From Hyphomicrobiaceae bacterium (lineage in GTDB: Bacteria; Pseudomonadota; Alphaproteobacteria; Rhizobiales; Xanthobacteraceae), in contig JAJPJB010000040.1 in the NCBI GenBank assembly GCA_021324465.1, positions 1 to 64,000 on the forward strand: 64,000 bases of DNA. The letters are read 5' to 3'. The notes below the pieces were generated by a model. It had not been told where the DNA came from, ran no database searches, and saw only the letters and a program-made list of their open reading frames with translations. Each line of letters opens with the position of its first letter. Position 1 is the first letter of the stretch. Made by a program: the position numbers and the translations under genes. Shown in pieces: positions 41,845 through 46,158 of the stretch.

Positions 41845-43455
41845 TCACGCCGGCGCGCCCGATTTCAGGAGCTTGTAGACGATCGAGTCCATCAGCGCCT
41901 GGAACGATGCATCGATGATGTTGGCGGAGACACCGACCGTGGTCCAGTGATCGCCGGTCTCGTCGGTGCTTTCGATCAGCACGCGGGTGACGGCTTGCGT
42001 GCCCCCATTGAGAATGCGCACGCGATAATCGGTGAGCGTTAGCCCGGTGATGTAGCTCTGGTATCTGCCGAGATCCTTGCGCAGCGCGAGATCAAGCGCG
42101 TTGACCGGGCCGATGCCTTCCGCGACCGAGATCAACTCCTCCTCGCCGACTTTGATTTTCACGACCGCTTGACTGACCGTGACCGGCTCGCCCCTGCCGT
42201 TCCGGCGCTGCTCGACATTGACGTCGAATTTCTCGACGTCGAAATAATGCGGCACCTGACCGAGCATACGGCGGGCGAGCAGATCGAACGAAGCATCAGC
42301 GGCCTCGTAGGCATAGCCGATCGCTTCGCGCTCCTTGACCTCTTCCAGAAGCCGCGTCACGCGCGGATCGTCCTTGTCGATCGCAAGGCCGATGCGCTCC
42401 AGCTCGGCCAAGACATTGGAGCGGCCGGACTGATCCGAGACGAGAAGCTTTCGCTTGTTGCCGACGCGTTCCGGCGCGACATGCTCGTAAGTCGCCGGCT
42501 CCTTCACGATAGCGGACGCGTGAATGCCGGCTTTGGTGGCAAAGGCGCTCTCGCCGACATAGGGCGCGTGGCGATCCGGGGAGCGATTGAGCAGCTCGTC
42601 GAGCGCGTGCGAGACGCGCGACAGCCGCGCCAGCGCCGCATCCGTGACGCCGATCGCGAACCGTTCGGCATATTCCTTTTTCAACTTCAACGTCGGAATG
42701 ATCGAGACCAGATTGGCATTGCCGCAGCGCTCGCCGAGCCCGTTGAGCGTGCCCTGAATCTGCCGCGCGCCGGCGCGCACCGCCGCAAACGAGTTCGCCA
42801 CCGCCTGCTCGGTGTCGTTATGCGCATGAATGCCAACGTGGTCGCCCGGAATTTTCGCGCAGACTTCGCCGACAATGCGCTCGATCTCGTGCGGCAGCGT
42901 GCCGCCATTGGTATCGCATAAGACGACCCAGCGCGCGCCCTCCTCGTATGCAGCCCTGGCGCAGGCGAGCGCATAGGCGGGCTTGGCCTTGTAGCCGTCG
43001 AAAAAATGCTCACAGTCGAGCAGCACTTCGCGGCCCCTGGCTTTGGCGGCGCGTACACTGTCGCGGATCGACGCGAGATTTTCGTCCTCCGTGGTCTCGA
43101 GCGCCACGCGCACGTGATAGTCCCAGGACTTTGCCACGAAGCAGATCGCATCGGCCTGCGCGTCAAGCAGCGCAACCAGGCCCGGATCGTTGGACGCCGA
43201 GCGGCCGGGCCGCCGCGTCATGCCGAAGGCGGTGAGCTTTGCCCGCATCGGCCGCCGCTCGGAAAAAAAATTCGTGTCGATAGGATTGGCCCCCGGATAG
43301 CCGCCCTCGACGTAATCGAGGCCGAGCTCGTCAAGCATGCGAGCGATGGCGAGCTTGTCGGCCAGCGTGAAATCGACGCCGTTGGTCTGCGCGCCGTCGC
43401 GCAGCGTGGTATCGAACAAGTAGAGCCGCGATTTTTCGCTGTTAACGAGCGCCAT
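41845..43455 (-). CDS. cimA: (R)-citramalate synthase
   Basis: The 536-residue protein is of the LeuA/CimA family: metal and substrate motif LYLFDTTLRDGAQTNGVDFT, HAHNDTEQAVANS with the metal His pair, LNGLGERCGNANL and a C-terminal LeuA-type regulatory domain (about residues 400-530). The DG-A-Q-T-x-G-V form and length indicate the CimA type, which condenses acetyl-CoA with pyruvate at the start of the threonine-independent isoleucine route. It is the last gene of the cysS-GNAT-small protein operon, with four bases after the small membrane protein. Feedback control by isoleucine is known in the family. Confidence 0.92.
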   Translation of the reverse strand: MALVNSEKSRLYLFDTTLRDGAQTNGVDFTLADKLAIARMLDELGLDYVEGGYPGANPIDTNFFSERRPMRAKLTAFGMTRRPGRSASNDPGLVALLDAQADAICFVAKSWDYHVRVALETTEDENLASIRDSVRAAKARGREVLLDCEHFFDGYKAKPAYALACARAAYEEGARWVVLCDTNGGTLPHEIERIVGEVCAKIPGDHVGIHAHNDTEQAVANSFAAVRAGARQIQGTLNGLGERCGNANLVSIIPTLKLKKEYAERFAIGVTDAALARLSRVSHALDELLNRSPDRHAPYVGESAFATKAGIHASAIVKEPATYEHVAPERVGNKRKLLVSDQSGRSNVLAELERIGLAIDKDDPRVTRLLEEVKEREAIGYAYEAADASFDLLARRMLGQVPHYFDVEKFDVNVEQRRNGRGEPVTVSQAVVKIKVGEEELISVAEGIGPVNALDLALRKDLGRYQSYITGLTLTDYRVRILNGGTQAVTRVLIESTDETGDHWTTVGVSANIIDASFQALMDSIVYKLLKSGAPA

Positions 43456-43459
43456 GATC

Positions 43460-43582
43460 TCAACCGTGATAGAGCCGATAGACGGTGTAGAAGGTCACGG
43501 CGACGGCGGCCACGATCACCGCATATTTGAGGATCAGATAATACAGCCAATGCCGCGGGAACGGCGTTTCCGGACCTTTCAT
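43460..43582 (-). CDS. Small single-pass membrane protein, 40 residues
   Basis: [20 protein letters not shown] opens a 40-residue protein that continues with the hydrophobic AVIVAAVAVTFYTVYRLYHG to the stop. One transmembrane helix (about residues 12-34) with a Pro-rich cytoplasmic start and a short basic end is predicted. The ATG lies in an ATGA overlap with the GNAT gene stop, and cimA starts four bases after its stop, so all three are translationally coupled. Its conserved-looking embedding argues that it is a real gene. Function unknown. Confidence 0.75.
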   Translation of the reverse strand: MKGPETPFPRHWLYYLILKYAVIVAAVAVTFYTVYRLYHG

Positions 43583-44103
43583 GACCCACCCCCGTCGCGT
43601 TTGCCGCCCGGCGCTGCGGCAAGCGTCTTGCTCATGGTCGTATTGGCGAGCCATTCATCGCCCAGCGCAATCGTATTGCGTTGTTGCGCCTTGAAGCCGC
43701 GCTTTTCGAAAAAGCTACGCGCATTGTCGCTGGCGTCGACCGAGAGCTGTTTCGTGCCGCGCGCGGCAGCAAGCTTCTCCAGCGCGTCAACGAGCATCGC
43801 GCCGGCGCCCTGCCCGGCCGCCGCCGGGTGCACATAGAGCATGTCAATGTGGCGATTGTCGGCGAGTGCCGCGAAGCCGACCGCCGCGCCATCGAACGTC
43901 GCGACCAGCGTCAATTCGCCGGCAAGCTTCCGGCCGAACGCCTCCTCGTCGTCGGCGGTCGCTACCCAGGCTTCCCGCTGCGCCTCGCTATAATCCTCCG
44001 ACGTCAATTCCTCGATGCTCGAGCGAAAGATTTCGGCAAGGAACGGCACGTCGGTCGGCAGCATCGGCCGCATGGCAAGCTTTGGATTGGCGCGGGCGCT
44101 CAT
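43579..44103 (-). CDS. GNAT-family N-acetyltransferase
   Basis: A 174-residue acetyl-CoA-dependent acetyltransferase with [20 protein letters not shown] at the N-terminus and the acetyl-CoA loop in [20 protein letters not shown] (Q/R-x-x-G-x-G/A pattern as GQGAGA), then [18 protein letters not shown]. The last 25 residues are a Lys/Gly-rich extension. The substrate (protein N-terminus, amine or amino acid) cannot be told. Its start overlaps the cysS stop by four bases and its stop overlaps the 40-residue membrane protein start by four bases. Confidence 0.88.
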
Positions 44104-45482
44104 CGTGCGATCTCCCAGGTGGTGCCATCCTTGGTGTCCTTCAGCACGACGCCCATTTTGGCGAGCTCGTCACGGATGCGATCGGACTCCTTGAAGTTCT
44201 TTACCCTGCGCGCGGCATTGCGGGCCTCGATCAAACCGACAACCTTGCTTTCGTCGACCGCGAGCGAAGCGGGACGGAAGGCCGACCATTGTGCCGGCGT
44301 TTGCTGCAGCAGACCGATCAGCCGTGCGCTTGCTTTCAAACACGCGGCCGCAGGTCTGGCCCCTTTGGCCGCCTCGCCGCGCAGTTCGTGCAAGGCCGCA
44401 AGCGCCTTCGGCGTATTGAGATCGTCGGCAAGCGCCTCGATCGCATCGGCGCAAAGATATCCGGGCATCGTGTCAGCGGTGAGACCGTACCAGTGATCGA
44501 GCGTCTTCTGCGCCTCGCGCAGACCGGAAACGGTCCAATTGATCGGCTGGCGATAATGCGTTTGCAGCATCGCGAGACGGATCACCTCGCCCGGCCAGTC
44601 CTTCAGCAGGTCATGAATCGTCACGAAGTTGCCGAGCGACTTCGACATCTTCTCGCCTTCGACCTGAAGGAAGCCGTTGTGCATCCAGAAATTCGCCATC
44701 ACCGGCGTATGGAAGACGCAGCGCGATTGTGCGATCTCGTTCTCGTGGTGCGGAAAGACGAGGTCGATGCCGCCGCCGTGGATGTCAAATGTCTCGCCGA
44801 GATGCTTCCATGACATCGCCGAGCATTCGATATGCCAGCCGGGCCGGCCGGGCGCCTTGATGCCGGCGGGCGACGGCCACGCCGGCTCGCCCGGCTTGGA
44901 GGGTTTCCACAAGACAAAATCCATCGGGTCGCGCTTATAGGGCGCGACATCGACACGGGCGCCGGCGATCATCTCGTCCAGCGGTCGCTTCGACAGCTTG
45001 CCGTAGTCCGGCATCGACGGCACGGAAAACAGCACGTTGTCCTCGGCGACATAGGCGTTGCCCGACGCGACCAGCCGCTCGATCAGGATGCGCATCTCGG
45101 CAATGTGCTCGGTGGCGCGCGGCTCGACGGTCGGCGGCAAAGCGCCGAGCGCCGCCACATCCTCGTGAAATTGCTTATCGGTCTGCTCGGTGACTTTGCG
45201 GATCGCTTCGTTCAGCGGCAGATCCGGATATTCCTCGGCGGCTCGCGCATTGATCTTGTCGTCGACGTCGGTGATGTTGCGCACATAGGTGACATGATCG
45301 GCGCCGTAGAGGTGGCGCAACAGGCGGAACAGCACGTCGAAGACGATGACGGGGCGCGCGTTGCCGATATGGGCGAAGTCATAGACGGTCGGTCCGCAGA
45401 CATAGATGCGGACATTGTTCGGGTCGAGCGGCCTGAAGAGCCGCTTCTCGCGCGTGAGCGTATCGTAGAGCTTCAATTCCAT
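44100..45482 (-). CDS. cysS: Cysteinyl-tRNA synthetase
   Basis: The 460-residue class I synthetase charges tRNA-Cys. The HIGH-type motif is in [11 protein letters not shown], the zinc ligands appear in [23 protein letters not shown] and [11 protein letters not shown], and the KMSKS motif is in [12 protein letters not shown]. It heads an operon with a GNAT enzyme, a 40-residue membrane protein and cimA, joined by four-base overlaps or gaps. A 159-bp leader upstream contains a short reading frame with three Cys codons and hairpins, suggesting control by charged tRNA-Cys. ATG 45482 has no strong ribosome site nearby. Confidence 0.96.
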
Positions 45483-45532
45483 CGCATCGAATCAGGTCGG
45501 ATCGGAATCAAACAGTACACCTCGGGCCTGCT

Positions 45533-45574
45533 GGCCGGGCGTCTATCGCTCTCGATATATGAGAAAAGACGGCC
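45533..45574 (-). promoter_or_regulatory. Second hairpin of the cysS leader
   Basis: On the minus strand CGTCT (45572-45568) can pair with AGACG (45545-45541) and the adjacent TCTC with GAGA, giving an extended stem 51 bp before cysS. The outer sequence GGCCAGC can alternatively pair with GCTGGC in the first hairpin's 3' arm, so the two structures are mutually exclusive. Confidence 0.4.
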
Positions 45575-45576
45575 GC

Positions 45577-45596
45577 AGCCAGCGTTGTCGCTAGCT
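45577..45596 (-). promoter_or_regulatory. First hairpin of the cysS leader, overlapping the leader stop codon
   Basis: AGCTAGCG-acaa-CGCTGGCT forms an 8-bp stem with one G-T pair and an ACAA loop. Its 5' arm is the last sense codon and stop codon of the short Cys-rich frame, so a ribosome finishing that frame would block it and one stalled at the Cys codons would not. TTTT follows 10 bases later (45567-45564). Confidence 0.45.
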
Positions 45597-45641
45597 GATA
45601 ATCTCCCGGCAAATGCCGCAGATGATGTGAAGGCCGCACAT
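45591..45641 (-). CDS. Candidate cysteine leader peptide upstream of cysS
   Basis: The frame encodes MCGLHIICGICREIIS, then TAG: 16 residues with Cys at 2, 8 and 11. It ends 108 bases before cysS. A TTGACG-17-CATTGT promoter places transcription start at or one base before its ATG, so it would be a leaderless message, like the leaderless trpL leader peptide described in Sinorhizobium. A hairpin overlaps its stop codon. Three Cys codons in 16, in front of the gene for cysteinyl-tRNA synthetase, is what amino-acid-specific attenuation predicts. It is too short to be certain; codon function must be tested. Confidence 0.55.
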   Translation of the reverse strand: MCGLHIICGICREIIS

Positions 45642-45648
45642 TGCCGGC

Positions 45649-45677
45649 ACAATGATGGGTCGAGGGCGCGGCGTCAA
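45649..45677 (-). promoter_or_regulatory. cysS: Sigma-70-type promoter for the cysS operon
   Basis: On the minus strand TTGACG (45677-45672), a 17-base spacer and CATTGT (45654-45649) fit a vegetative promoter. The predicted start point is 45642 or 45641, which coincides with the ATG of the short Cys-rich frame. Confidence 0.5.
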
Positions 45678-46158
45678 GGTCTATCGGTGCCGGCCTTCTG
45701 GACGCCATCCAGGGCGGGCGGTCTCTCCCTTGCATTGGACGATGTGCTGCGGCCGGCCGTGCAATATCAAAGTCATTTACCCGCCGCCGGCAGCTTTGCC
45801 GCGCGTGGCGGATGATCAAAAAATCCCCGGTCTGCATTTCACGTTCCTTATCCGAGCGATCTGTCACCGCGATGCCACGCGGCTCGGAAATGCGCCAACC
45901 GACCTGTGGAAACGCCGCCATCACTCTTCCCGATGCACCGCCTGCGCGCGCAAAACATGCTCACGCGAACGCACTGCTTCCGTGCAGCGGCACTTAACGA
46001 AAGCTTAACTCGGAAGCTGCATTCTCGGCCTGCATTTAATTTCCGGGGAATTGAGCGGGACCCGTCGGCGGCCCCGGTCGGACAATCTGATCGGATGACA
46101 CGGCCGCGCACCACGTCCTGTTGAGGGCTGCGCAGGTAGTATGCGTAGTGGATGAATC
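45678..46158. other. Intergenic region with no recognisable gene
   Basis: These 481 bases separate the cysS promoter from a small plus-strand secreted protein gene. Reading frames in both directions (for example minus 45924-45508) are Arg/His-rich with no family resemblance, and one crosses the cysS leader. I see no RNA gene. The right part must hold the promoter of the gene at 46159. Confidence 0.4.

Follow-up and report, generated by a model that had tools for sequence, protein, structure and literature searches.

The closest described counterpart of the element reported here is uORFC-8-2, a short ORF with tandem cysteine codons that lies upstream of cysS in 145 Rhodobacterales examples and for which ribosome-mediated attenuation has been proposed as a computational prediction (PMC8632094). 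A cysS attenuator as such is already in print as this Rhodobacterales prediction; a preliminary description of the present DNA, made without searches, knew of none of this form in Hyphomicrobiales. The passages of PMC8632094 that deal with uORFC-8-2 make no mention of isoleucine, cimA, Hyphomicrobiales/Rhizobiales or Bradyrhizobium, and the term turned up in no further paper in the literature searched. Neither a Cys+Ile leader nor regulation of cysS-cimA was described among the matches listed, which covered few subscription papers, and among their titles and abstract openings none pointed to such a leader besides PMC8632094.

Other systems resemble the element in part. Mycobacterial polycysteine ORFs, which are leaderless, front cys biosynthetic operons and are reported to act by translation attenuation (Canestrari 2020, as cited in PMC13236596), and the cysteine leader candidates of Actinobacteria are reported to have no conserved terminator hairpins (PMC1262725). 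The mycobacterial ORFs share with the leader described below a short, leaderless Cys-codon frame controlling operons; they differ in that these are cys biosynthetic operons and that the relevant passages leave Ile codons unmentioned (PMC13236596, PMC1262725). The rhizobial trpL leader (peTrpL/rnTrpL), as portrayed in the sections of PMC10117765 on it, is likewise a leaderless short ORF from Hyphomicrobiales that works by attenuation, yet it is a tryptophan attenuator of trpE and involves no synthetase operon. A precedent for codons of more than one amino acid in one leader is that of ilvBN, which has both Ile and Val codons, but its amino acids share a pathway according to the part of PMC4117421 concerned, whereas the operon studied here combines a synthetase and a biosynthetic enzyme for two unrelated amino acids.

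Our reading, which we place on the probable side, is that this operon, cysS-GNAT-cimA, is preceded by a ribosome-mediated attenuator that would sense both charged tRNA-Cys and charged tRNA-Ile. Like uORFC-8-2 as published, the element consists of a short Cys-codon ORF upstream of cysS, stems and a U run; what it adds, and what we consider new here, is the range in Hyphomicrobiales, the isoleucine arm, the link to cimA and a pairing that involves the start codon.

A short ORF upstream of cysS and its conservation in the genus

The locus lies on the minus strand of the window, by which we mean the whole stretch of 64,000 nucleotides that was analysed, and comprises the following features:

45649-45677, minus strand: promoter TTGACG-17-CATTGT (TTGACG at 45677-45672, CATTGT at 45654-45649)
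45591-45641, minus strand: leader ORF MCGLHIICGICREIIS, with Cys at codons 2, 8 and 11 and Ile at 6, 7, 10, 14 and 15
44100-45482, minus strand: cysS, cysteine--tRNA ligase (TIGR00435, 469.7 bits, cut-off 340)
43579-44103, minus strand: GNAT acetyltransferase (PF13673)
43460-43582, minus strand: small hydrophobic protein of 40 residues, a membrane protein as read from the sequence
41845-43455, minus strand: cimA, citramalate synthase of the isoleucine pathway (TIGR00977, 640.6 bits, cut-off 450)

The sequence bears out the 16-codon frame of the preliminary description with its three Cys codons, the promoter in front of its ATG, the 108 bases between leader stop and cysS start and the succession of genes from cysS through GNAT and the small membrane protein to cimA. 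Since a mere 7 nt separate CATTGT from the ATG, the leader transcript is probably leaderless; a strict scan of the window for sigma-70 promoters, based on the E. coli consensus, gave no match. The 40-residue protein begins at an internal ATG of the ORF at 43460-43654 and found no match in a Pfam search with the window copy; by eye, a similar short ORF lies 5' of cimA at locus L245. The genome also encodes a threonine deaminase scoring above its family cut-off, so CimA is probably one of several routes to 2-ketobutyrate rather than the sole one.

Taken alone, the window sequence is unremarkable: its single-sequence fold has a z of -1.3, with 25 of 200 shuffles folding equally well or better, and the one Rfam match in the region is sub-threshold, off the element and on the opposite strand. 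Across ten loci, Rhodobacterales included, no Rfam family exceeded its gathering score. The case for the leader comes instead from comparison. All 20 genus members compared, the window's own genome and 19 others, keep the ORF upstream of cysS; it starts with ATG in 17 and GTG in three, and its lengths of 16 codons (16 genomes), 17 (three) and 15 (one) differ by multiples of three nucleotides, that is, in frame. This conservation suggests that the ORF is translated, and on comparative grounds we regard the leader as real and conserved. Conservation of the Cys codons, which the preliminary description had taken as a test, is uneven: Cys11 is kept in 17 of the 20 leaders and Cys8 in 13, and Cys2 is confined to the window (1/20), with at least one Cys in 19. 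The Ile codons are no less constant, every genus leader ending in E-I-I-(R/G/S). One member of the genus (L017, genome G019) carries the otherwise intact leader VNGPNHISRGMSREIIR, with Ile codons and without Cys, the sole Cys-free case among 163 leaders collected. In a wider set of 36 leaders, picked by an REI-like peptide motif and for that reason no test of Ile content or frame, 35 have Cys and all 36 have at least two Ile.

The label 'cysteine-responsive' that the locus had initially been given is thus right as far as a conserved Cys-containing ORF and mutually exclusive pairings before cysS go; with the Ile codons equally constant and an isoleucine-pathway gene in the operon, it is probably too narrow by itself. 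The comparison with uORFC-8-2 has a similar outcome. As in that motif, the ORF precedes cysS and contains Cys codons; the two tandem Cys codons are absent, Cys8 and Cys11 being non-adjacent (C8-G9-I10-C11). Comparable leaders occur in Rhodobacterales too, and since these carry Ile and mostly precede cimA, uORFC-8-2 and the Hyphomicrobiales leader are probably one element, of which the window leader is likely to be a homologous variant.

Mutually exclusive pairings and a candidate switch

The pairing segments of the leader transcript are, from 5' to 3':

45632-45637, minus strand: segment A, GCGGCC, adjoining the start codon; pairs with D
45607-45618, minus strand: hairpin B, CGGC-AUUU-GCCG, spanning the Cys8 to Cys11 codons
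45576-45597, minus strand: hairpin H1, CAGCTAGCG / CGCTGGCTG, across the stop codon
45561-45574, minus strand: segment D, GGCCGT, then U-rich CTTTTCTC (45568-45561)
45530-45544, minus strand: segment E, AGACGCCCGGCCAGC; can pair instead with D or with the 3' arm of H1

Part of this architecture had been seen before. The stop-codon hairpin, put at 8 bp, is present with 9 bp (45597-45589 with 45584-45576); the GCCAGC motif assigned to a second structure at 45533-45574 exists, at 45535-45530 and partly outside that range; and in the predicted fold its pairing with GCTGGC reaches 15 bp. The start-codon region as an important 5' pairing partner, with A:D joining 45637-45632 to 45574-45569, was absent from the earlier account. 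In the minimum-energy fold of the window sequence through the cysS start, A:D, B and H1 form; folded alone, the post-stop part adopts the long D:E helix, and a shorter stretch of 122 nt gives a mixed fold.

To ask whether these pairings are maintained, we used the 163 collected leaders, a set for which either Cys and Ile or an REI motif had been required and which is thus no test of Ile content or frame, removed eight doubtful ones (L108, L188, L261, L268, L290, L116, L229, L233) and reduced the remaining 155 to 81 non-redundant leaders, in which the pairing of each segment with its own partner was compared with partners exchanged between species (2000 permutations). A:D (z -7.9), D:E (z -7.7) and H1 (z -8.5) were each matched by none of the 2000 permutations, and the control A:E gave +0.3; the controls A:promoter (-2.0) and A:reversed D (-1.7) were not quite neutral. 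A:D and D:E overlap: of the D positions that A:D occupies, a mean of 81% also take part in D:E. Covariation, proposed at the outset as a check for compensatory changes, is seen order-wide, with little of it in the close group of 36, where A:D shows one-sided changes alone, H1 two-sided changes at three pairs, D:E no covariation, and hairpin B, paired in 91% of cells, one-sided changes throughout; because the pairs barely vary there, the close-group tests say little. An early model had E:F as a classical terminator, situated between D:E and cysS; it was demoted because E:F covariation is weak (z -2.7, 9/2000 permutations as good; 73 of the 81 leaders, those in which 14 nt or more follow E).

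The locus combines two hallmarks of attenuators: a short ORF whose regulatory codons match the genes that follow it, and mutually exclusive helices over and downstream of that ORF. Attenuation at the cysS-cimA leader is very likely on this evidence. As for the switch itself, we find it moderately probable that a shortage of charged tRNA-Cys or tRNA-Ile turns on cysS-cimA through the stem between start codon and post-stop region. Transcription would start at the leader ATG or adjoining it. Completed translation of the leader would expose A, which would pair with D beyond the stop codon, and the resulting A:D stem, enclosing B and H1 and followed directly on its 3' side by the U-rich tract, would favour termination (OFF). 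A ribosome stalled at the early Ile or Cys codons would instead mask A, leaving D free to pair with E, and RNA polymerase would continue into cysS and cimA (ON). Leader translation, stalling, termination at the U tract, the direction of the response and the sensing of isoleucine are all steps that we infer.

The switch mechanism is partly supported by folding with a ribosome-sized mask whose size was assumed. At the U-rich tract, A:D had 7.7 pairs without a ribosome and 8.5 with a ribosome at the stop codon, and these fell to 1.9 upon a stall at the first Ile and 4.1 at the first Cys, so early stalls fit an antitermination logic acting during transcription. Stalls at the last Cys (7.0) and the last Ile (9.2) kept A:D intact, though the Ile-Ile pair often lies late in the leader; such late stalls would misfit antitermination unless A:D cannot close around the ribosome. 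In the full transcript D:E led in every state (10.1 pairs versus 3.8 for A:D when ribosome-free), so that A:D would need to act during transcription; in the window's own full transcript, A:D led when free (6.1 versus 3.8) and D:E after a stall.

Alternatively, the same helices might work with no intrinsic terminator, the competition of D:E with A:D or E:F gating the cysS start codon or the exposure of the leader to Rho or RNase. The dominance of D:E in the full-transcript fold would suit such translational attenuation, as would the nature of the putative termination site: a U-rich tract does follow A:D, yet no simple terminator scored in a scan of the window, and the tracts are modest, at least six T in eight positions occurring in 24 of the 73 leaders. 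Moreover, the gap between the end of the predicted E and cysS measures 12-30 nt in 41 of the 73 leaders, and at L013 the E-region hairpin ends beside the start codon. The weak E:F covariation and the range of distances from leader stop to cysS (66 to 258 nt), however, argue against this alternative, which we regard as rather unlikely.

Cysteine and isoleucine codons and the link to cimA across the order

We sampled 120 genomes of the order and obtained 110 cysS upstream regions, the window's own among them. Of these, 78 contain a short ORF whose last 11 residues include Cys and Ile-Ile; the reverse strand gave one such region and dinucleotide shuffles a mean of 1.1, while Cys with Leu-Leu and Cys with Val-Val each occurred in two of the 110. 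Leaders were found in 32 of the 40 sampled families of Hyphomicrobiales (at least one each), for example in Ensifer adhaerens (L046, MKTVICIICRKIIR). We also chose ORFs with no amino acid criterion, requiring a suitably spaced TTGAC-like box and a fitting ORF length and position. At 88 of 109 loci a short ORF followed a TTGAC, TTGAT or TTGGC box with similar spacing, and the 101 distinct peptides, a few of them clearly non-leaders that dilute the signal, were enriched 8.8-fold in Cys and 4.2-fold in Ile relative to the long ORFs of the window, with Val (0.3-fold) and Leu (0.5-fold) depleted; their last ten residues were 34% Ile and 15% Cys. For per-locus counts under this choice, the nested start with the most Cys and Ile was taken. 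Ile codons in leaders order-wide comprise 219 ATT, 112 ATC and 10 ATA, compared with 79 ATC versus 21 ATT in seven genes of the window.

One might argue that only the Cys codons regulate, in a cysteine attenuator of cysS, and that the Ile codons have some other role, for instance to leave the stretch of RNA under the ribosome rich in A+U and free of structure, or to shape the nascent peptide. Cys is indeed the most enriched residue and suits cysS directly, the preference for ATT over ATC is what a need for low G+C would give, and the passages of PMC8632094 on the Rhodobacterales motif treat Cys codons alone. On the other hand, Val, Leu, Phe, Tyr and Lys are unenriched (0.2-0.8-fold) though A+U-rich or hydrophobic, ATC is also used for leader Ile, and leader presence follows linkage with an isoleucine-pathway gene, as set out below. 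We therefore hold this explanation to be unlikely and the sensing of both Cys and Ile to be likely, to the extent that codon content and gene context can tell.

The linkage was tabulated for 115 of the 116 order genomes with cysS (G043 was left out). In 100 of them cimA lies 1.3-4.7 kb downstream of cysS on the same strand (start to start), and 82 of these 100 have a Cys+Ile-Ile leader, one call (G098) depending on a TTG start; the rule fires in 2/115 on the reverse strand and 1.6 times in shuffles. The non-linked genomes, nine without a cimA match and six with cimA elsewhere, include two with a leader, both at contig ends. With three contig-break cases set aside (G144 and G116, which have a leader, and G062, which has none), the leader is present in 82/100 linked and 0/12 resolved non-linked genomes (Fisher p 2e-8, uncorrected for relatedness), and four families (f1, f16, f18, f21) each hold both states. 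Some of the 18 linked genomes that lack a leader under the strict rule are near misses, such as MNGLLAICAICREITS (L148). Joint loss of the leader with the cysS-cimA operon, as part of the dual-sensing reading, seems to us somewhat more probable than its opposite.

Among 78 named GTDB loci, cimA lies no more than 2.5 kb away at 38; the leader is present at 21 of these, and seven more have Cys and two Ile, whereas 26 of the 34 without cimA at that distance have none. In seven of the eight exceptions cimA lies 3.9-4.6 kb downstream, distances derived by hand, an unlabelled contig being equated because coordinates and strand fit; the eighth, L108, looks like a false leader call. In a class-wide sample, 60 of 142 cysS-bearing genomes picked by linkage status, the leader was found in 7/40 linked and 0/20 non-linked regions, three of the seven (L261, L268, L290) later being excluded as doubtful. 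Linkage thus reaches beyond leader-bearing lineages, 33 of the 40 linked regions having no leader, which suggests that it is older or wider than the leader.

If the dual reading is true, a single leader peptide ties the synthesis of one amino acid to the charging of a different one, which would suggest why cysS and cimA are so widely linked in Alphaproteobacteria. It would also widen the Rhodobacterales prediction to most sampled Hyphomicrobiales families, rhizobia included, and makes the cysteine-isoleucine link testable in tractable rhizobia.

Rather than its codons reporting tRNA charging, a conserved C-terminal peptide (REIIR-like) could arrest the ribosome or act in trans, in keeping with the E-I-I at the end of all 20 genus leaders and with the rhizobial peTrpL peptide, which is reported to act in trans (PMC7298713); order-wide, Cys and Ile content persists and a single peptide sequence does not, making this very improbable. 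A chance ORF with chance hairpins, for which the single-sequence z of merely -1.3 might speak, is refuted by the conservation, the ORF controls, the covariation and the Cys/Ile enrichment, and can be set aside.

A covariance model built from the 36 leaders matched in 40 of 61 related genomes, 39 of them upstream of cysS, many of the matched sequences being already in the model. A second strong match, in G009, proved to come from a contig end that is duplicated (99.6% over 262 nt); the remaining extra matches had E values of 0.001 or weaker, and one of these, in G051, reads as protein-coding (phosphopentomutase-like).

Upstream of unlinked cimA, no Ile-only leader was seen in G125 or G151, and in G077 and G062 the contig end is too near cimA to judge. 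Directly upstream of the unlinked cimA of G125 and G151 (L242/L243) lies an ORF of 73-77 residues that matches PF23493, the CysS C-terminal domain, at 23.7 and 23.4 bits (cut-off 23); it may be a relic of an old cysS-cimA operon or a stand-alone domain.
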